From Halothiobacillus sp. (GTDB lineage Bacteria; Pseudomonadota; Gammaproteobacteria; Halothiobacillales; Halothiobacillaceae), in contig JAGUXT010000014.1 in the NCBI GenBank assembly GCA_020061705.1, positions 50,769 to 114,768 of the forward strand: a stretch of 64,000 nucleotides of DNA, written 5' to 3'. Positions 52,340-64,000 of the stretch are shown in pieces; position 1 is the first letter of the stretch, and each line of letters starts with the position of its first letter. The notes under the pieces are model-generated. The model was not told the origin of the DNA. It searched no databases and saw only the letters and a program-made list of their open reading frames with translations. The translations under genes were made by a program, and so were the position numbers.

Positions 52340-53587
52340 ATGTTTCGTCCTTTTGAATTTTTCGTGGGTTTGCGTTATACGCGTTCCAAGCGGCGTAATC
52401 ATTTTATTTCTTTTATTTCAATGAGTTCGATGCTTGGAATCGCGGTCGGTGTGACTGCGTTGATTACCGTTTTGTCGGTGATGAACGGCTTTGAGAAGGA
52501 GTTGCGCGACCGCATTCTGGGCATGGCCTCGCATCTCACCATTACCGGGTCGGGCGAGCGCTTGGGTGACTGGCAGGCGGTGGTGAAGGCCGTGCAGCCG
52601 ATGCCGGGTGTGATGGCGGCGGCACCGTTTACGCAGGCCGAAGCGATGTTGTCGTTGCCGAGTGCTGTGAGTGGTGCGGTGGTACGTGGGGTTGAGCCGG
52701 AGTTGGAAAACACGGTCACGGACATCGGCCAGCACATGCAGGCGGGGCAGTTGACGGACTTGCGCCCCGGAGAATATGGCATCGTGCTGGGACGTGAATT
52801 GGCGAATAGCCTCGGAGTGGGCGTAGGCGACCCGCTGATGCTGATTACCTCCAATATCGCCATGACCCCGGTGGGGGCGCTGCTGCGTGAAAAGCGCTTT
52901 ACCGTGGTGGGGATTTTTGAGGTCGGTATGTATGAATTCGACCGTGGCACGGCGCTGATTCATATGAATGATGCACAAAAGCTGTTCCGCCTTGAGTCGT
53001 CGGTGAACGGGGTGCGCCTGAAGCTGGCGGATATGTTTGCCGCACCGAGTCTTGGGCGTGAGATTGCCGCGAGTTTGGGCGCAGGTTATTACGTCGGCGA
53101 TTGGACACAGCGCAATGCGAATTTCTTCCGTGCGATTAAAACCGAGCGCGCGGTGATGTTCATTATTTTGGCACTTATTGTGGCGGTTGCGGCGTTCAAT
53201 ATCGTCTCGACCTTGGTGATGGTGGTGACTGACAAGCAGGCGGACATTGCGATTTTGCGCACTCTGGGCGCGTCGCAGGGTTCGATCATGCTGATTTTTA
53301 TGGTGCAGGGCACGCTGATCGGGCTGGTCGGCATGGTGATGGGCCTGGTCGGGGGGCTGGGGTTGGCGCTGAATGTGGAAACGCTGGTGCCTTGGCTTGA
53401 GCATACGTTTAACGTCACCTTCCTGCCTGCAGATGTGTATTACATCAGCGAGTTACCCTCGGATGTGCATGCCGCCGATGTGGTTCGTGTGGCTATTCTG
53501 TCGTTTACCCTGTCGGTGTTGGCGACCATTTATCCGGCGTGGCGTGCTTCGCGCACTCAGCCGGTGGAGGCGTTGCGTTATGAGTGA
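52340..53587 (+). CDS. lolC: Lipoprotein-releasing ABC transporter permease LolC/LolE
   Basis: [56 protein letters not shown]. Confidence 0.94.
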
Positions 53588-54278
53588 GGCCGCTGTGAAT
53601 CAAGCTGTGGTTCGTTGTGTCGGCGTAGGCAAGACCTATGCCGAGGGTAAGCTCAAGGTCGAAGTGTTGCGCGGGGTGGATTTGGTGATTGCCAGCGGCG
53701 AGCGTGTGGCGATTGTCGGTTCATCGGGCGCGGGCAAAAGCAGCCTGCTGCAATTGATGGGCGGGCTGGATGTGCCAAGCGTCGGCGAGGTGTGGGTTGA
53801 TGGGCGTGATTTGGCACGCTTATCGGAAACCGCACGTGGGCTTCTGCGTAATCAGAGCATCGGGTTTGTCTACCAGTTTCATCATTTACTTGGTGAATTC
53901 AGTGCGCTGGAAAATGTGGCCATGCCGTTGTTGATTCGTGGCGCCTCGGTGAGCGAAGCGCGCGAACGGGCACAAGCCATTCTGGATCGCGTGGGTCTGG
54001 GCAAGCGTTTGGAGCACAAGCCCGGCGAGCTATCAGGTGGCGAGCGTCAGCGCACGGCGTTGGCGCGGGCGTTGGTGACCAGGCCGAAAGTGGTGCTGGC
54101 GGATGAGCCTACCGGGAATTTGGACTCGCGTAATGCAGGCGCGATGTTTGATTTGCTGATGGAGCTGAATGCGGAACAGGGTACGGCCTTGGTCGTTGTG
54201 ACCCATGATTTGAGCCTGGCCGCACGCATGGATCGCGTGCTGCATATGCGTGATGGGGCGATTGTGGAGGCGGAATGA
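53580..54278 (+). CDS. lolD: Lipoprotein-releasing ABC transporter ATPase LolD
   Basis: [57 protein letters not shown]. Confidence 0.95.
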
Positions 54279-54290
54279 GTGGGTGTTGAT

Positions 54291-54955
54291 TAAACGAAGG
54301 TTTGATGCGCACTTGCGCCGAAGGTGCGGTGGATTTTGATTTCAGCTTTCATCCCCCGTGTGGGGTCGCCGTGAACGAAGTGCTGGAGGCATGGTAAACA
54401 GGCCATGGATGGCCTGTTTAGTCCCATCGCAACAGGACGTTGCGTTGGGACGGCCTTGCCGGAGGTGCTTTGTTCACGGCTTGCCCGCAGGGCGACCCCT
54501 CAGGGGTGCATTTCTTTGGTGACTTTCTTTGTGCAAGCAAAGGAAGTTACTCGCCCGCAGCCAACGCAATTTGCAACGAAGCGTCTGCGTCAAGACGGGC
54601 GAAAAAGCCCACCACCTGTTCAAGTGCGGTGGTATTGTTTCGTCCGTTTCAAGTTCGCACGCTGCCCAGGCCATGTTTGTCACGGACGAGTTCCTTTCTT
54701 TGCTTGTCCAAAAAAAGGAACCAAAGAAAAGACACCCCGTTGATGCCGCCCTGCGGGCAAGCCGTGAACTGACCTGTTCCAGCCGGGTCGCCCCGACGCG
54801 ACATCCATGTCGCGACGAGGCTAAATGCGCCATCCATGGCGCTTTTACCCGGCCTCCACAGGTCAGTCCATGGCGGCATCAAAAGGGGGACAGTAAATCC
54901 AAAACCAAATCCGCGGCTTCGGCGCAAGTGCGCATCAAACATTCGTTTGCTGGGC
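54291..54955. repeat. Composite intergenic inverted repeat made of two related structured elements head-to-head
   Basis: Outer arms AAACGAAGGTTTGATGCGCACTTGCGCCGAAG / reverse complement of CTTCGGCGCAAGTGCGCATCAAACATTCGTTT; inner hairpins at 54395-54420, 54421-54451, ~54790-54850. Confidence 0.8.
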
Positions 54956-54970
54956 ATCAATAAAAAGCGC

Positions 54971-54997
54971 AAAAAAAACCCGCCAATCGGCGGGTTG
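54971..54997 (-). terminator. Rho-independent terminator downstream of fabI
   Basis: AAAAAAAACCCGCCAATCGGCGGGTT. Confidence 0.7.
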
Positions 54998-55021
54998 TGT
55001 CACGCTGGCTAGACGGAAAAA

Positions 55022-55810
55022 TCAGTCACACCGCCCCATGCCAGTAATGAAATACCCCGAATCCACATAGATATTCTCGCCGGTGATGCCGCGCGCCAGC
55101 GGGGAACCGAGGAAGGCGGCGGTGTTGCCGACGTCGTCGATGGTGACGTTGCGGCGCAGCGGGGCGTTCTTTTCCACGTAGTCGAGGAACATCTTGAACT
55201 CGCCAATGCCGGAGGCGGCCAGAGTCTTGATCGGGCCGGCGGAGATTGAATTCACGCGGATATTGTCCACGCCCATGGAGGCTGCCATGTAACGCACGCT
55301 GGCTTCCAGTGCGGCCTTGGCCACGCCCATGACGTTGTAGTTGGGCATGGCGCGCTCGGCACCGAGGTAGGAGAGGGTGAGGATGGAGGCATCTTCACGG
55401 TCTTTCATCATCGGGCGCAGTACCTTGGCCATGGCGGTCAGGCTCCATGCGCTGATGTCATGGGCGACACGGAAGCCTTCGCGGGTGGTGTTTTCCACGT
55501 AATCACCCTTGAGTTGGTCCTTGTCGGCAAAGGCTACGGCGTGAACGAGAATATCAAAGCCGTCCCAATATTGGCCGAGCAGGCCGGGCAGCGCATCAAG
55601 CTGTTCATCACTGCTGACATCCAGCGACAGGACAATACTGGAGCCAAATTCGGCTGCGACTTTTTCTACGCGCTCCTTGAATCGGTCGCTTACATAGGTG
55701 AAAGCAAGATCGGCACCCTGGCGGTGCATGGCGCTGGCAATGCCATAAGCAATGGAACGTTCATTAGCAATGCCTACGATCAGTGCGCGTTTTCCGGTGA
55801 GAAAGCCCAT
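55022..55810 (-). CDS. fabI: Enoyl-[acyl-carrier-protein] reductase (NADH)
   Basis: [57 protein letters not shown]. Confidence 0.96.
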
Positions 55811-55844
55811 GCGGTGACTCCTTGGTCTGTGTTTTAATCGCGGC

Positions 55845-57650
55845 ATGATAACACTCCGTTCAAAAAATCATTTTTTCAGCAGTGTGGCACTGTGCCTTGT
55901 CATGCTTTTTTCCGCGCCGCTGCGCGCTGAACCCGCCTTGGCGCTAGGTTATACGCCCGCCTACCCGCCGGGATTCACGCATTTCAACTACGTCAATCCC
56001 GCTGCGCCCAAGGGCGGCAATTTGGCTATGTCGGCATTCGGCAGCTTTGACTCGCTTAATCCGTTTTTACTCAAAGGCTTGCCTGCCGCCGGTTTGGGCA
56101 GTTTGGTGTTTGAAACATTGCTGGAAAAAAGCTGGGATGAGCCGTTTTCGATGTACGGCTTGTTGGCCGAGGATGTTTCTCTGGCACAGGATGGCTTGTC
56201 GGTCAGCTTTCGCCTGCGTCCACAGGCGCGCTTTTCCGATGGTTCGCGCATGACGGCACAGGATGTGGTGTTTTCCTTCGATGCCCTGCGCTCAGCCAAG
56301 GCGCACCCGCAATATCGTGTGTATTGGGCGGACGTGGAGCGTGCTGAGGTGCTGGATGAGCGAACAGTGCGTTTTGTGTTCAAGAAGCCTAATCCAGAGC
56401 TGCATCTTATTTTGGGTGAAATGCCGGTCTTGTCGAAGCAATGGGTGAATGGACGGGCATTTGACGAGTTGGCGCGGGTTAAACCCATTGGCAGCGGGCC
56501 CTATATCCTGGAATCGTATGACTGGGGTAAACAGGTGGAATACCGGCGCAACCCGGATTATTGGGCGAAGGATTTGCCGGTGCGGCGCGGTATGTATAAC
56601 TTCGATCAGATCAGCTTCAAGTATTACAAGGATCGTACTGTATCGCTGGAGGCTTTCAAGGCGGGGGAGTTTGATTTCTTTTATGAAAATCACTCGAAGC
56701 GTTGGGCGCGCGATCATGCCGGTCTTAACTACGCCAATGGCAAGATCATAAAGACCACGATTGCTCATAGCAATAATGCGGGTATGCAGGGCATTGTTTT
56801 CAATACGCGCCGCCCTTTATTGCAGGATAGACGCGTACGCCAGGCGCTGAGTTTGGCGATGGATTTTGAATGGTCGAATCGCAATCTTTTTTATGGGCAA
56901 TATACCCGTTGTGATAGTTATTTCAGCAATAGCGAGCTGGCCGCGCATGGTTTGCCTTCGGCAGCAGAGTTAAAGTTGCTTGAACCCTTCCGTGATCAAT
57001 TGCCGCCCGAAGTATTTACCCAAGTCTATCGCCCTCCCTCGGCTGAAAATTCGCAGGCACTGCGCAGCAATCTGATTCAGGCCAAGAACCTGCTGGCTGA
57101 GGCCGGATGGACGGTGCAGGATGGCGTGCTTAAAAATAAGGAAGGCCGGGTGTTTGCGTTCGAAATACTGCTCGGTCAAAAGGGTTTTGAGCGTATTATG
57201 GCACCCTATGTCTATAATCTGCGTAAACTTGGTATCAACGCCGATTATCGTACCATTGATGCGGCACTCTACCAGCGCCGCGTAGATACCTTTGATTTTG
57301 ATGCGGTGATTGAGGTTTTTGGTGCTTCGCAATCACCGGGAAACGAGTTGTTTAATATGTTTCATTCCTCCAGCGCAAATCAGGAGGGTTCAGGCAATGC
57401 CGCAGGGGTATCCAGCCCGGTGGTTGATGCTTTGGTGAAAAAAATTGTCTATGCCCAAAATCGCGAGCAATTAATCACGGCAACCCATGCGCTGGATCGG
57501 GTATTGTTGTGGGGATATTACCTGGTGCCGAACTGGTATATTGCGAATCATCGTATTGCGTATTGGGATTATTTTGAGCGACCCAGGACGCTACCCTTGT
57601 ATTTTGAAGCCGAGCCTTGGGTGTTGAAAACATGGTGGCGCAAACCATGA
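55845..57650 (+). CDS. Oligopeptide ABC transporter substrate-binding protein, YejA-like
   Basis: [46 protein letters not shown]; signal peptide. Confidence 0.93.
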
Positions 57651-58045
57651 GTATCGAGGTGAGTTTGGCCATGAGCAGCATGAGTGTGCAGGATAGTAAC
57701 CATCCCTGCCTGCATTGCGGTGCATGTTGCTCCACATTTAGGGTAAGTTTTTACTGGACGGAGTCCGAGCCTGCGGCAGGCGGTGTTGTTCCCGCTGAAT
57801 TGACCGATAAGCTCAACGATTTTCGTGCGGTGATGAAAGGTACCAATCGCCCGGATCCGCGTTGCATTGCGCTTGACGGCGAGGTGGGTGGTTTTACTCC
57901 GTGCCGAATTTACACTAATCGCCCCACACCGTGCCGTGATTTTTTGATGGCACTGGATGATCCGGAGCTGGATTCCGCCTGTGACCGTGCGCGTGAAAAG
58001 CATGGACTACCACGTCTGAAGCCTTGGCCGGAGCAGAGCACATGA
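57647..58045 (+). CDS. YkgJ-family cysteine cluster protein
   Basis: CLHCGACCSTFRVSFYW; CRIYTNRPTPCRDF; ATGA overlap with the upstream gene. Confidence 0.88.
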   Translation: MSIEVSLAMSSMSVQDSNHPCLHCGACCSTFRVSFYWTESEPAAGGVVPAELTDKLNDFRAVMKGTNRPDPRCIALDGEVGGFTPCRIYTNRPTPCRDFLMALDDPELDSACDRAREKHGLPRLKPWPEQST

Positions 58046-59097
58046 CTGCCTATATCCTCAAACGTTTAATGTTGATGTTGCCAACCTTGTTTGGCGTACT
58101 ACTGATTACTTTTGTGGTGACCCAATTTGTTCCCGGCGGGCCGGTGGAGCAGTTGGTGCATCAGTTACAGCACGGCGGGCGCGAAGGCGGTGAAGCGAGC
58201 GCGGGTGCTGAGGGGATGTATCGGGGCGCTCAGGGCCTGGATGAAGAACGCCTGGCAGAAATTCGTGCTTTTTACGGCTTTGATAAACCGGCATGGGAGC
58301 GTTTTATCGCTCTCGTCGGCAATTATTTGACCTTCAATCTTGGCGATAGTTATTTTCAACACCAAAGTGTTCTGAGTTTAATGGCGGAGAAAATGCCGGT
58401 ATCCATTAGTTTGGGTTTATGGACATTTCTTATTACTTATTTGGTCAGTATTCCGCTCGGTGTGCGCAAGGCGGTACGTGATGGCACGCCGTTTGATGTG
58501 TGGACAACGACGGTGCTTTTGGTCGGCTATGCTATTCCTGGATTTGTGTTGGGCTTGTTTCTATTGGTTTTATTTGGCGGCGGTAGTTTTTGGGATCTGT
58601 TCCCCCTGCGCGGTTTAACTTCAGACAATTGGGCTGAGTTATCGTGGCCGGCGCGCATTGCCGATTATATATGGCACATGATTTTACCCGTGACCGCCAT
58701 GGTGGTGGGGCAATTTGCCGTGATGACGCTGCTAACCAAAAACAGCTTTCTTGAAGAAATTCGTAAGCAATATGTGCTGACAGCACGTGCCAAGGGACTG
58801 GCTGAAAATCAGGTTTTGTATGGTCATGTATTCAGAAACGCGGTCATTCCTCTCGTGACCGGCTTTCCTGCGGCGTTTATTGGTGCATTCTTTACCGGTA
58901 GTTTGCTGATTGAAACCCTGTTTTCATTGGATGGCTTGGGTCTGTTGTCTTACGAGGCGGTATTGCAGCGTGATTATCCTGTGGTTTTGGGCACGCTTTA
59001 TATTTATACCTTGCTTGGTTTGGTCGCAAAACTTCTTACCGATTTAACCTATGTGTGGGTTGATCCACGTATCCAGTTTAATGCGGTGGCGCGATAA
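58042..59097 (+). CDS. yejB: ABC transporter permease, YejB-like
   Basis: MTAYILKRLMLMLPTLFGVLLITFVVTQFVPGGPVEQ; ARAKGLAENQVLYGHVFRNAVIPLVTGFP. Confidence 0.94.
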   Translation: MTAYILKRLMLMLPTLFGVLLITFVVTQFVPGGPVEQLVHQLQHGGREGGEASAGAEGMYRGAQGLDEERLAEIRAFYGFDKPAWERFIALVGNYLTFNLGDSYFQHQSVLSLMAEKMPVSISLGLWTFLITYLVSIPLGVRKAVRDGTPFDVWTTTVLLVGYAIPGFVLGLFLLVLFGGGSFWDLFPLRGLTSDNWAELSWPARIADYIWHMILPVTAMVVGQFAVMTLLTKNSFLEEIRKQYVLTARAKGLAENQVLYGHVFRNAVIPLVTGFPAAFIGAFFTGSLLIETLFSLDGLGLLSYEAVLQRDYPVVLGTLYIYTLLGLVAKLLTDLTYVWVDPRIQFNAVAR

Positions 59098-59111
59098 TCT
59101 GTGCAATAAAA

Positions 59112-59133
59112 AAGGAGGCCTGTTGGCCTCCTT
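59112..59133. terminator. Bidirectional rho-independent terminator
   Basis: AAGGAGGCCTGTTGGCCTCCTT between convergent genes. Confidence 0.6.
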
Positions 59134-59154
59134 GTTGGGGTTCAAGTCAAGAGT

Positions 59155-59748
59155 TTATTTCTTGACGACCGCAGGCTCCAGCAGGATGGCCACGGCATCG
59201 GTAAATACGACATCCACCTGGTCACCGACTTTGAGGGTATGCAGCAATTCTTTGCCAGCGGTGGTTTTGGCAGTGGTGGTGCGCACTTCACCGTTGGGCA
59301 AGGTGAATTTGACAAAGTCTTTTTTCATATCGAGGGCTTGAATGGTCACGACCGTAGAAATGCGACGGCCTGTAGCCATACCTGGTTGCCCGCCCTTTGG
59401 AGCAAGGGCGACACCTTCTTCAACTTCGGTGCGTGTAACGAGGGTGTTATGAGGACGAACTTCCATGAGCAAGGATTGCATCATGCGTACACGCAGGATG
59501 TCACCAACCTTAATTTGTGGGAAATTGCGCACTTCCTCACCCGCCACTATGGTGGTTGTCTCGCCTGTATTATCGCGTAGGGTGATTTGGCGGGTTTTGG
59601 GGTCAACCGCGGTGACGGTGGCCAGTGGAAGATCGACGGCATCAATGATCACTGTGGGTTCACTGGGTTTGCTTTCTGCAATACTTAGCCCGCTGTTGAG
59701 AGCTAAGCCAAGTGCCAGTATAGCGAGTACGATTTTTGAATGTTTCAT
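59155..59748 (-). CDS. Uncharacterised secreted protein
   Basis: N-terminal signal MKHSKIVLAILALGLALNSGLSIAES; beta-rich TAVDPKTRQITLRDNTGETTTIVAGEEVRNFPQIKVGD. Confidence 0.7.
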   Translation of the reverse strand: MKHSKIVLAILALGLALNSGLSIAESKPSEPTVIIDAVDLPLATVTAVDPKTRQITLRDNTGETTTIVAGEEVRNFPQIKVGDILRVRMMQSLLMEVRPHNTLVTRTEVEEGVALAPKGGQPGMATGRRISTVVTIQALDMKKDFVKFTLPNGEVRTTTAKTTAGKELLHTLKVGDQVDVVFTDAVAILLEPAVVKK

Positions 59749-59809
59749 GAATGCAAAGTCCTTAAGTCAATGATGAAAGGCCAAGTGAATTTAGCAGATT
59801 TGGACGCTT

Positions 59810-60886
59810 ATGGGGGCAAATGTGAGTGCAAGCGTTGAAGTGACTGTCGGAGCTCCAACTGCAGTGTCAGTAATGACGCCGGGGGCGCGCAGTTGGCAGC
59901 GTTTTCGTAGCCACCGTCGCGCATGGTGGAGCTTGTGGATATTTATCGTTTTATTCTCATTGAGTCTTTTGGCCGAAATGATTGCCAACGACAAGCCCTT
60001 GCTGGTGAGTTATCAAGGCAACTTGTACGTGCCCTTTATTCATGATTACCCTGAAAGTACGTTTGGTGGCGAGTTGGAAACACCTGCGGATTATCATGAT
60101 CCGTATGTGACCCACCGCTTGACTGAAAATGGCAATTGGATGTTGCGCGCACCGATTCCATATAGTTATAACTCGATCAATTATTACGCTGCACAACCCA
60201 ATCCAGCCCCCCCGGATGCGCAGCATTGGCTGGGAACCGATGACCGTGGTCGGGATGTGATGGCACGCCTGATTTATGGTTTCCGGCTGTCGGTTTTGTT
60301 CGGTTTGGCACTGACTGCTGTAGGTTTGGGCTTGGGATTACTTACCGGTGCGCTGCAGGGTTATCTTGGTGGGCGTTTCGATCTGGCCTTTCAGCGTTTC
60401 ATCGAAGTATGGGGTTCAATGCCAGAGTTGTATTTGCTAATTATTTTCAGCTCGATTTTTAGTCCAAGTATTTGGCTTCTGTTGATTCTATTATCACTAT
60501 TCGGCTGGATGGGTTTGTCTGATTATGTGCGTGCCGAGTTTTTGCGTGGCCGTAATCTTGAGTATGTGAGTGCGGCACGCGCCTTGGGGGTTTCCGATCG
60601 ATCCATCATGTGGCGGCATTTAATGCCCAACGCCATGACGCCGGTATTAACCTTCCTTCCATTTCGCCTGTCGGGGGCGATTCTTGCGCTCACAAGCCTG
60701 GATTTCCTGGGTTTGGGCGTGCCACCCTCAACGCCGAGCCTGGGAGAGATACTTTCCCAAGGTAAGGAAAATATTGATGCATGGTGGTTATCTCTGTCGG
60801 CCTTTGGCGTGCTGGTCGGCTTGCTGGTATTGCTGATCTTTATTGGCGAAGGCTTGCGGGATGCGTTTGATACGCGGAAACGATGA
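59810..60886 (+). CDS. yejE: ABC transporter permease, YejE-like
   Basis: SLLAEMIANDKPLLVSYQGNLYVPF; HWLGTDDRGRDVMARLIYGFRLSVLFG. Confidence 0.94.
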   Translation: MGANVSASVEVTVGAPTAVSVMTPGARSWQRFRSHRRAWWSLWIFIVLFSLSLLAEMIANDKPLLVSYQGNLYVPFIHDYPESTFGGELETPADYHDPYVTHRLTENGNWMLRAPIPYSYNSINYYAAQPNPAPPDAQHWLGTDDRGRDVMARLIYGFRLSVLFGLALTAVGLGLGLLTGALQGYLGGRFDLAFQRFIEVWGSMPELYLLIIFSSIFSPSIWLLLILLSLFGWMGLSDYVRAEFLRGRNLEYVSAARALGVSDRSIMWRHLMPNAMTPVLTFLPFRLSGAILALTSLDFLGLGVPPSTPSLGEILSQGKENIDAWWLSLSAFGVLVGLLVLLIFIGEGLRDAFDTRKR

Positions 60887-60952
60887 GTTAAATATGGGTG
60901 CGTCTGTACGCATTTGTGTATGCAGTCGTGGTACCTGAGTGTGCCGCTGTGT

Positions 60953-60967
60953 TAAATGAGTCATTTA
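60953..60967. promoter_or_regulatory. Perfect palindrome, candidate enhancer-binding site
   Basis: TAAATGAGTCATTTA about 85 bp upstream of a sigma-54-like promoter; related TTAAATG half-site near 60984. Confidence 0.4.
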
Positions 60968-61046
60968 GCGCATGTTTGACTGAGTTAAATGCCCCACTCC
61001 TGTCTGTGAATATTCTAAAAAAACTATTTAATCAATAGCTTATAAG

Positions 61047-61062
61047 TGGCATATCCTTTGCT
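61047..61062 (+). promoter_or_regulatory. Candidate sigma-54 (RpoN) promoter of the bd-like oxidase operon
   Basis: TGGCATATCCTTTGCT: GG-N10-GC spacing, close to TGGCAC-N5-TTGCW. Confidence 0.65.
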
Positions 61063-61122
61063 TATGAGGTATTCGATCGGTTTTATAGCCGACGATCAAC
61101 CTTCAGCTTAGGAGAGCACGCT

Positions 61123-62523
61123 ATGGACCTGATTGGTCTTTATCCCATGTGGTATGAACCGGGTATCGGCAGCGGCTGGGTGGTGGGCTTTATTGCCACG
61201 ATTCACGTGTTGTTTTCGCATACCTCGGTCGGTGCCGCGATTTTCTTCATGATTCTCGCGACGATTGCCTACCAGCAAAACAAGCCTGAGCTTCTTGATT
61301 TCATTAAGAAGTACGGTCTTTTCTTGCTTGTTTTTTCGTACATCCTTGGCTCCATCACCGGGCCAGGTATCTGGTACTCGACCACGGTCGCCAGCCCGCG
61401 CGGGATATCCTCACTGATTCATAGTTTTGTGTGGAAGTGGGCTACCGAGTGGGTGTTCTTCGTCATCGAAGTTATTGGTGTTTACATGGTGACGTACCTT
61501 GTAGGCAAGGTTGATCAGAAAACCCATCTTAAACTGACCATTATTCTTGGTCTGGCGTCGTATACCACCATGCTTATTATCCTTGGTATCCTGAGTTTCA
61601 TGATGTGGCCAGGCAAGGAAGAGTGGTTTAGCGAAGGTGGATATCTCTTGGGCTTCTACGGTGAAAATACGTTTGCCCAATTGGCCATGCGTACCGCCTT
61701 TATGTTCTCCATGACTGCCGTGGTGGGCAGTATTGTGACTGCAGGCTTCAAGGATCAGGTTTTCCGTGCGCAAATGAACCGTTGGCTAGCGTTGGCGGGC
61801 ATCGGTGGCACGGTGGTGGGCGGGTTGTTGTTCTACTGGTATCTGAATACCCTGCCTGAGTATGCGCACCTGATTATGGAAAATCGGCTTCCGGCATGGT
61901 TTGCGCCAAGCCTGTACTCGATTCTGGCCGCCATGCTGGTGTATTTCCTGATGATGATGGTTACCCCGCGTGCAATCACCACTTGGGTGGCAGCGACGGC
62001 TACGGTTGCCTTGGTTGTGTTTGGTCTGTGGCCGGAAGAGGTGGCGCGTGAGTCGATTCGCAAGCCTTATGTGTCGGGTCAGTATGTATATTCCAATCAG
62101 CTGATTGCGCGTGATGTGCCAGGCATGGGCATCAAGAGTGAAATCCCGTTGGTTGAGGCGCATGGCTTGTTGAAAACACAGGTATTCATGCCTGAAAACC
62201 TGCGCACAGTGACACCGGATAATATCCTTCAGGTAGGCCAAGCCTTGAGCACTCAAATGTGCTCTAACTGTCATTCGCTCTCGAAAACCGGGATCCGTCC
62301 GATTGGTAATTATATCGGCAAAAATACCGATATTCCGGCCATCAAGGTTTATCTGAAAGCGGCGTTGACGACGGGAAATACCTTGTATATGCCGAAAATT
62401 CCTTTGCAGGATGATGAGGCCGAGGCGATTGCACTGTATCTCGCTAATCTTAATGACCCCACGCAGGCCGCCCGCCATAAGGCAGAAAAAAGTGCTGTGG
62501 CTCAAGCTGTAATTAAGGAGTAA
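61123..62523 (+). CDS. Cytochrome bd-like oxidase subunit I (CydA-like) with C-terminal cytochrome c domain
   Basis: FIATIHVLFSHTSVGAAIFF, SYILGSITGPGIWYSTTVASP, FVWKWATEWVFFVIEVIGVY; C-terminal MCSNCHS...LYMPKIPLQDDEAEAIALYLANL. Confidence 0.82.
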   Translation: MDLIGLYPMWYEPGIGSGWVVGFIATIHVLFSHTSVGAAIFFMILATIAYQQNKPELLDFIKKYGLFLLVFSYILGSITGPGIWYSTTVASPRGISSLIHSFVWKWATEWVFFVIEVIGVYMVTYLVGKVDQKTHLKLTIILGLASYTTMLIILGILSFMMWPGKEEWFSEGGYLLGFYGENTFAQLAMRTAFMFSMTAVVGSIVTAGFKDQVFRAQMNRWLALAGIGGTVVGGLLFYWYLNTLPEYAHLIMENRLPAWFAPSLYSILAAMLVYFLMMMVTPRAITTWVAATATVALVVFGLWPEEVARESIRKPYVSGQYVYSNQLIARDVPGMGIKSEIPLVEAHGLLKTQVFMPENLRTVTPDNILQVGQALSTQMCSNCHSLSKTGIRPIGNYIGKNTDIPAIKVYLKAALTTGNTLYMPKIPLQDDEAEAIALYLANLNDPTQAARHKAEKSAVAQAVIKE

Positions 62524-62526
62524 CTC

Positions 62527-63765
62527 ATGGACGCACAAGCTTTATATGCCCTGCGTGACGTGGCAGGTGTTCCCACACATCCAGTTGTGTTTTTGATTCT
62601 CGGCGTGGTGACCTTTGCGCTGCATATTGCTGCGGTGCAAATCATGCTCGGAGCATCCGGTTTGACCATTTGGGGAGCGTTGAGTAAAGACTCGCATCAG
62701 CGCCGTTTGGCGCAGTCGATGGTTATGGTTTCCAAGGTCATGCTCTCCATCGCTATTGTGATTGGGGTGGCACCGCTCTTGTTTGTACAAGTGACCTATG
62801 ACCCCTTTTGGTATACCTCCAACGTGCTTTCTGCCTGGTGGGTGATCGGTTTTCTGGTGTTTCTGACTGTTGGCGCGTTGCTGTGGTTTTTCTTCAATGC
62901 CAAAAACGAAAACCTGGCGACAGAGAAAACCTTTTGCCCGGGCTCGGCCATTTTCGCGGTGGTGATGTTCCTGATTGTTGGTTTCATCATGCATGTTTTA
63001 ACCAATCAAATGCTTTCACCGGAAAAGTGGATGCAGTGGTATGCCCCCAATGGGGTAATTGATACCTCAGGGCGTGGGATTCATGACTTCAATCTGGCGC
63101 GCTTCCTGTTCTTTATTAGCTTGAGTGTTCCAGTGATTGGCGCCGTGCTGGTGGGGTATCGCCGTTACTATCTGCCGCGTCTGGCTGATAAGACTTTGAA
63201 CATGACACAAGACTATCTGGATTGGGCGGGTCGTTTGGGACAAAACCTGATTGTGGTGGGTGGTGTGGTCAGCGTGCTGATCGGAGCGTGGTGGATGGCG
63301 ACCCTGCCAGCCAATCAGGCGGCGTTTGCACTTTCGCCGTGGGTGTTGTTGTCCCTGGCTTTGTTGCTGGCATTTGTGGCGTTCGCCTTCTGGGTGCGCA
63401 TGGGCAAGATGGATACGCTGTGGGCCTATGCCGTGCTGCCGGTCGGTGCGGTGGCGCTGATTATGGTGGCGGCGGCACGCGAAATTCTGCGCTACCACGT
63501 CCTCATGGGCGCGCATGGCTACGACGTGTTCACTTACCCGATCAATATGGATTGGTACAGTACCCTCATGTTCTTTGGCACCTTCCTGATCGTGGGCGGC
63601 GGTGTGCTGGCTTACATGCTCACCGTGGCGTGGAAGGCCGGGCAGGCCGAAGGGGTTTACACGCCAGGGCCGATTATCTCCCGCATGGGTGATATTGGTA
63701 TTGCTCTGATCGTGTTGTGGATCGTGCAGTATTTCGCTGTAGGACTTTACGTCTGGTTAAGTTGA
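62527..63765 (+). CDS. Multi-TM partner subunit of the bd-like oxidase, possibly CydA-related
   Basis: Starts 3 bp after the previous stop; multiple TM helices; FALHIAAVQIMLGASGLTIW aligns by eye with FIATIHVLFSHTSVGAAIFF. Confidence 0.7.
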   Translation: MDAQALYALRDVAGVPTHPVVFLILGVVTFALHIAAVQIMLGASGLTIWGALSKDSHQRRLAQSMVMVSKVMLSIAIVIGVAPLLFVQVTYDPFWYTSNVLSAWWVIGFLVFLTVGALLWFFFNAKNENLATEKTFCPGSAIFAVVMFLIVGFIMHVLTNQMLSPEKWMQWYAPNGVIDTSGRGIHDFNLARFLFFISLSVPVIGAVLVGYRRYYLPRLADKTLNMTQDYLDWAGRLGQNLIVVGGVVSVLIGAWWMATLPANQAAFALSPWVLLSLALLLAFVAFAFWVRMGKMDTLWAYAVLPVGAVALIMVAAAREILRYHVLMGAHGYDVFTYPINMDWYSTLMFFGTFLIVGGGVLAYMLTVAWKAGQAEGVYTPGPIISRMGDIGIALIVLWIVQYFAVGLYVWLS

Positions 63766-63829
63766 ACCCTTCTTTCCTTAATTTCGGCCTGAGTGTGCTT
63801 CACGCTCAGGTCTACACGAGAACACGTCT

Positions 63830-64000
63830 ATGTTGAAACAGATTTTGATTACAGGGGCTGTGCTTGTGCTTTGCACTCCACTCTACGCGGCGCAAACCAC
63901 TGCCCCGCAAGCCAGTGGCGAGATGATGGGCAACACCTGTGCGGGGTGTCACGGTACACATGGTCGGCTTAGTGGAGAGGCCTTTGTGCCCTTGGCGGGC
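63830..64000 (+). CDS. c-type cytochrome, FccA-like (flavocytochrome c sulfide dehydrogenase cytochrome subunit); truncated by the window end
   Basis: MLKQILITGAVLVLCTPLYAAQTT signal; MGNTCAGCHGTHGRLSGEAFVPLAG. Confidence 0.65.
   Translation, partial: MLKQILITGAVLVLCTPLYAAQTTAPQASGEMMGNTCAGCHGTHGRLSGEAFVPLAG

Follow-up and report, generated by a model that had tools for sequence, protein, structure and literature searches.

Genes at the end of a Halothiobacillus contig point to a respiratory route from sulfide to O2 that bypasses quinol. The window, the whole stretch of 64,000 nucleotides analysed here, comprises bases 50769 to 114768 of contig C24 in a genome of 2.27 Mb; its last genes encode a membrane protein with a fused haem c domain (gene A), a second membrane subunit (gene B), and the first part of an FccA-like cytochrome (Table 1). 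We propose that A-B is a copper-free, quinol-independent O2 reductase of the bd superfamily, of the OR-C kind, fed from sulfide via FccAB and cytochrome c and bypassing both quinol and the bc1 complex, and we put the probability of this reading at roughly 0.6. A sulfide- or cytochrome c-linked bd-type system had already been suggested by a sequence-only reading of this DNA, and the features it predicted (the gene downstream, the loss of the Q-loop, and the identity of the gene at 63830) all held. We infer that sulfide donates the electrons and O2 accepts them, that the carriers act in the order given below, that the fused haem c receives electrons directly, and that bc1 is bypassed.

Two questions meet in this operon, namely what feeds the quinol-independent bd families and what FccAB does in vivo, and each can be tested through the other. 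While the OR-C family itself has already been published, the coupling of FccAB to an OR-C-like pair, in a combined operon conserved in more than 50 genomes, appears to be new. If the proposal is correct, electrons from sulfide would reach O2 by a copper-free path that avoids quinone and probably tolerates sulfide, a path of interest for biodesulfurisation, for sulfidic waters, and, through Sutterella and Duodenibacillus, for the gut.

Table 1. Features at the 3' end of the window (window coordinates).
Feature	Position	Strand	Evidence
Gene A, CydA-superfamily subunit, 8 TM, C-terminal monohaem cytochrome c domain	61123..62523	+	466-aa ORF; PF13442; AlphaFold/Foldseek; hhalign
E109-V117 codons (EWVFFVIEV), candidate counterparts of the E. 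coli CydA E99/E107 pair	61447..61473	+	E109 82/82, E116 81/82
E310-P315 codons (ESIRKP), paired by eye with the CydA E445xxR448QP haem b595 motif, periplasmic end of TM8	62050..62067	+	E310, R313, K314 82/82; E445, R448 26/26 canonical CydA
Haem c attachment motif C380-S-N-C383-H384	62260..62274	+	C380, C383, H384 in 82/82
Met423 (YMPK), candidate sixth ligand of haem c	62389..62391	+	82/82
Gene B, second bd-superfamily membrane subunit, ~10 TM, homologous to A	62527..63765	+	412-aa ORF; AlphaFold; hhalign of A vs B; conserved residues
fccA-like monohaem cytochrome c gene, 5' part (signal peptide, CAGCH), cut by contig end	63830..64000	+	ORF; full length 119 aa in congener G023
Collapsed two-copy repeat, 99-bp edge, identical to last 99 bp of contig C22	63902..64000	.	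Far edge (C22 start, C10 end) encodes FccB C-terminus

Gene layout and annotation

The open reading frames of genes A and B lie where the sequence-only reading had placed them, 3 bp apart, and B is the multi-TM protein described there. The third gene, whose product had been described as starting with CAGCHGTHG, is open from an ATG at 63830 to the end of the window, with 57 codons visible. Genes farther upstream (window 53373 to 60886) are not respiratory; they include a LolD-like ABC ATPase, an enoyl-ACP reductase-like gene on the minus strand, and a peptide ABC transporter (PF00496 and two PF00528 permeases). A promoter scan of positions 60600 to 64000 gave a signal no higher than that of shuffles. 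Standard annotation misses A-B, as the membrane part of neither subunit reaches the Pfam cut-off and NCBIfam models gave no match for A or B; plasmid-borne relatives are annotated merely as "cytochrome c" and "hypothetical protein."

Gene A has a CydA-like core without a quinol site

Gene A encodes a divergent cytochrome bd-superfamily protein that keeps the TM1 His, E109/E116, and E310xxR313KP and has lost the Q-loop and the TM5 His. Because its sequence HMM similarity to CydA is below threshold (PF01654, 12.2 bits against a cut-off of 26.2, in a curated model that describes quinol oxidases), the bd assignment was made by profile and structure comparison. The AlphaFold model of A (pLDDT 82.5, medium confidence; pTM 0.78) was compared with PDB structures using Foldseek. 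Matches 1 to 17 were bd-oxidase subunits, with CydA ahead of CydB, and the next six were ACIII or bd; the ten best, all CydA, had TM-scores of 0.43 to 0.60 and E values of 2e-5 to 6e-4. For the models of A and B alike, PDB matches were solely bd-oxidase subunits (with ACIII as well for A) until a sharp drop. A plain sequence search of the PDB returned no bd match for A or B and matched the haem c domain alone. Aligned by hhalign to a profile of 26 CydAs, A gave an E value of 6e-5 over TM1 to TM6, with H28 falling on E. coli H19; global hhalign gave nothing significant.

Fourteen positions are invariant among 82 A sequences (H28, W84, E109, W110, R190, E306, R309, E310, R313, K314, C380, C383, H384, and M423). 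The CydA-like N-terminal His region and acidic residues (ATEWVFFVIEV) noted from the sequence are borne out by the pairing of H28 with H19 and by the conservation of both acids (Table 1). At the end of TM8, E310-S-I-R313-K-P of A resembles E445-x-x-R448-Q-P of CydA in the same place; this match was made by eye, and the equivalence of E310 with E445, like the exact partner of E99, is motif based and not taken from a residue-level structural alignment. A thus resembles canonical CydAB (qOR) in its fold, TM1 His, acidic pair, and ExxR motif.

The quinol side of the protein differs. The segment between TM6 and TM7 is 26 aa in A (26 to 35 aa in the family) compared with 76 to 204 aa in the 26 canonical CydAs, in agreement with the earlier claim that the Q-loop is missing. 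Mapping of the haem ligands and quinol site onto CydA, which had been named as a check on that claim, found H28 and E310xxR kept, whereas K252 and E257, as well as the haem b558 ligands H186 and M393, have no counterpart in A (all four are present in 26/26 of the canonical set). The only His columns common in the membrane part of A are H28, H33, H100, and H135, with none in TM5. In place of the last CydA helix, A carries the haem c domain (approximately residues 340 to 444; PF13442 match at residues 370 to 440), and the monohaem domain first recognised from CSNCH and YMPK proved invariant at its attachment and candidate Met residues. Loops 1-2, 3-4, and 5-6 carry a mean of 3.2 to 3.8 K/R and the N-terminus carries none, which together with eight helices places both ends of A in the periplasm, with the haem c domain facing FccAB.

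The ACIII matches bear on the possibility that A-B runs the opposite way, as an ACIII-like or uphill quinone reductase that passes electrons from FccAB/cytochrome c through haem c to quinone and not to O2. Such a direction has been proposed in the Nitrospina paper for other bd-like proteins without a quinol site (PMC3578206), and reverse electron flow is required by the autotrophs, of which there are many among the hosts. We nevertheless consider it improbable: the ACIII components that match the A model, ActC and ActF, come after nearly all bd matches, A keeps the TM1 His and E/ExxR of the oxygen site and none of the canonical quinol residues, and gut Sutterella and other heterotrophs carry the same operon.

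Gene B encodes a second subunit with the bd fold

A family search of gene B returned no relevant match, and, in a difference from subunit II of CydAB (qOR), B is not CydB-like by sequence profile. Since hhalign of B against CydA or CydB profiles gave nothing significant, its assignment rests on fold and on A-B homology. The AlphaFold model of B (pLDDT 93.9, pTM 0.91) had bd-oxidase subunits as all of its top 15 PDB matches, the best being a CydA, with CydB chains nearly as high. Alignment of A with B by hhalign reached a probability of 92.4% (E 5e-7) and put ARESIRKPY of A on AREILRYHV of B. His33 in TM1 of B is invariant, and E319xxR322 is conserved except in a divergent clade with His. Judging from these residues (H33 and E319/R322), B may bind haem too.

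The divergent clade comprises an Agrobacterium plasmid and genome G278 (L030:12010-14573 and L046:7258-10031), and E319 of B is His in both. B of G278 has a CXXCH motif; the annotation of the Agrobacterium protein is cytochrome C.

An FccB gene probably follows beyond the contig end

The end of contig C24 (C24:114768) is exactly window base 64000. A collapsed repeat causes the contig to stop there, inside the fccA-like gene, and fccB therefore cannot be read from C24. The last 99 bp of C24 equal the last 99 bp of C22, the signature of a collapsed two-copy repeat, and the other repeat edge opens C22 (first 99 bp) and closes C10 in reverse orientation (last 99 bp). Each far edge codes for the C-terminal 31 residues of an FccB, which share 71% identity with those of a relative; the repeat interior is absent from the assembly, and this short C-terminus is the readable part of the genome's own FccB. 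Past the repeat edge, C22 runs into a dihaem cytochrome c of 262 aa (L066:100-888), and C10 into a short ORF, a CuA-type subunit II, haem-copper oxidase subunit I, a dihaem c, and a copper-type P-ATPase.

Since C22 has both repeat edges and chromosomal genes, we infer that C24-fccB-C22-fccB-C10 is the sole linear order. Joining C24 to C10 instead was rejected, as it would leave C22 a closed circle despite its chromosomal housekeeping genes. With this order, the bd-like operon would read A-B-fccA-[fccB]-dihaem c, and a second fccA-[fccB] would precede the haem-copper oxidase. On a single contig, the congeneric genome G023 has A (96%) and B (99%) together with a full-length monohaem fccA and, within ~30 bp of fccA, the beginning of a gene that encodes an FccB-like twin-arginine sequence (MNRRDFLKLG). 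The expectation that fccB would follow position 64000 is therefore supported by the fccB start in G023, 56 named relatives, and the FccB C-terminus at the genome's own repeat edges, but the gene is not on the window's contig. Because it lies directly upstream of fccB, the gene at 63830 is FccA by context, in line with the sequence-only reading, though it is monohaem; the idea of a stray c4/c5-type gene was rejected for the same reason.

The same genome also has a canonical CydA, a stand-alone fccAB, and the second fccAB copy beside the haem-copper oxidase, so FccAB may feed several acceptors. The second fccA-fccB (L067:3154-6405 on contig C10; L006:4041-4208 at the end of C22) is identical at the repeat edge and has a different signal peptide; it precedes the haem-copper oxidase (CuA subunit and subunit I), dihaem c, P-type ATPase, and an SCO1-like gene. 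An fccA-fccB-A-B-dihaem c cluster directly adjoins the haem-copper oxidase cluster in Halothiobacillus KUB_Bin10 (L114:1-11438).

FccB and FccA of the operon

In the relatives, operon FccB has the domains PF21706 and PF09242 and matches 1FCD with an E value of 1.9e-106; it shares these domains, the redox-active cysteines, and a Tat signal with Allochromatium vinosum FccAB. Cys161 and Cys337 (1FCD numbering) are kept in 57/57 sequences, including all 56 operon copies. At position 42, where a Cys binds FAD covalently in A. vinosum FccB, the 56 operon FccBs have Cys in 14, Pro in 38, Gly in 2, and His in 2 (the window's own FccB is unreadable there), a replacement in 42/56, whereas Cys42 is kept in 31/31 stand-alone FccBs. 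These patterns indicate that the active site is retained and that the flavin is probably non-covalent in most operon FccBs. The 56 operon and 31 stand-alone FccBs, the latter taken from a class-wide search and picked by Pfam score (a possible bias), are split by one branch with support of 100. Operon FccA also differs from that of A. vinosum in being monohaem rather than dihaem, with one CXXCH in the congener and relatives, and in being encoded with an oxidase. A monohaem FccA has also been reported for Guyparkeria (PMC6504805).

The operon is conserved mostly in sulfur oxidisers

At least 578 relatives were confirmed by tblastn, and a genome scan with the family alignment yielded 80 named loci, the neighbourhoods of which were searched by tblastn with chosen partner genes only. 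Among these loci, 56 have fccA-fccB beside A-B with all genes on one strand, and dihaem c comes next in nearly all. The order is A-B-fccA-fccB-dihaem c or, in Halothiobacillus and Guyparkeria, fccA-fccB-A-B-dihaem c. Given numerous homologues and the conserved next genes at 56 loci, A-B is not a chance pair of ORFs. Comparison with the named relatives puts the genome in Halothiobacillaceae or close to it; the nearest A among them (L070, 90% identity) is from a MAG labelled "Thiomicrospira cyclica." The oxidase family is rare overall, as a profile search of 399 genomes of the phylum found one further genome with a full-length match; the remaining matches were to the haem c domain alone.

The other 24 loci comprise 10 cut by contig ends, 4 clade members without fccB, and 10 from a sister clade with A2-B2, mostly with a monohaem c and without FccAB. 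The fccB gene is absent from only 4 of ~60 clade-1 loci with enough sequence (three Methylococcus-type and one Thiobacillaceae). The three Methylococcus-type loci read A-B-dihaem c without fccAB, so the oxidase does not strictly require FccAB. Presence of fccAB is strongly clustered on the A tree (3 changes versus 14.5 in shuffles).

Hosts of the operon are Beta- and Gammaproteobacteria, mostly sulfur oxidisers, and include Thiomicrospira, Thiomicrorhabdus, Thioalkalivibrio, Thiomonas, Thiobacillus, Thiothrix, Thiohalocapsa, Hydrogenophaga, Tepidimonas, and gut Sutterella. The complete A-B-fccA-fccB-dihaem c operon occurs in the gut bacteria Sutterella wadsworthensis and Duodenibacillus massiliensis (L136 and L141).

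That obligate sulfur lithotrophs keep the operon and that its FccBs form a clade of their own agree with a route in standing metabolic use. These two observations fit less well with a cytochrome c-fed oxidase whose FccAB partner acts as a broad thiol/polysulfide or sulfide-detoxifying dehydrogenase, with the system serving O2 scavenging or sulfide tolerance, not energy conservation. This alternative appears unlikely but deserves weight: an A. vinosum FccAB knockout oxidises sulfide at normal rates (PMC10892978), and the sister A2-B2 does without FccAB, accompanied by a monohaem c and sometimes by a histidine kinase and regulator. Host lifestyle also bears on whether A-B uses cytochrome c electrons to reduce NO, H2O2, or another substrate, with O2 not the main acceptor. 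Side activities with NO and peroxide are a property of bd enzymes, and we found no activity report in the open literature for cytochrome c-type bd homologues, both of which count towards that idea. We regard it as very improbable, considering that the hosts are mostly aerobic or microaerophilic and that the partner genes searched by tblastn in the recurring neighbourhood give no such pointer.

Proposed electron path and comparison with known systems

In the sulfide-to-O2 reading that we prefer, sulfide would reduce FccB through its disulfide and FAD flavin, and the electrons would pass to the haem c of FccA and then, optionally through the dihaem c as a shuttle, to the fused haem c of A. This periplasmic haem c would be the point of electron entry, in place of haem b558 and quinol, and would hand electrons to the bd-like active-site haems (TM1 His and E310xxR positions kept) and so to O2, with B as the same-fold partner of A. 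Whereas ~1 µM H2S inhibits haem-copper oxidases, bd promotes respiration that resists sulfide (PMC8657789 and its reference 92); a bd-like oxidase for sulfide respiration therefore makes physiological sense. More tentatively, the five genes might encode a physical sulfide:O2 oxidoreductase supercomplex, and so a whole membrane respiratory chain from a single operon, with FccAB docked on the haem c of A, B binding haem, and no need of quinol, bc1, or copper, although we hold this arrangement to be doubtful.

Murali, Gennis and Hemp (2021, ISME J 15:3534) reportedly found a conserved quinol site in qOR only, and its definition of OR-C is said to include bound haem c. We found no description of an FccAB-bd operon in the open literature, with Murali 2021 or its supplement a possible place of mention. 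Three bd families (qOR, OR-C, and OR-N) are recognised in PMC10839748 and PMC13189123, and OR-C is described there and in PMC11707229 as having a CydA-like core without a quinol site and a predicted other electron donor. The A-B pair fits OR-C as published, compared by description only: the core without a quinol site is common to both, whereas the OR-C descriptions found make no link to FccAB. The OR-N or CydAA' oxidases of Nitrospira and Nitrospina likewise have no quinol residues and a presumed cytochrome c donor, and their second subunit is related to CydA, as B may be; they belong to another family, and the Nitrospina protein has 14 TM and occurs with NXR genes rather than FccAB (PMC3578206).

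Sister A2-B2 operons

A paralogous A2-B2-monohaem c operon of the sister clade, without fccAB, is present in the same genome (L007:4276-7327, contig C16), not far from molybdate transport genes (modA, modB, and modE-like). On the Methylosinus plasmid pMSC49c (L028:12001-16943), A2-B2-cytochrome c occurs with a histidine kinase and response regulator and adjoins methanobactin (copper-scavenging) genes, a neighbourhood that suggests a copper-free oxidase for copper starvation.
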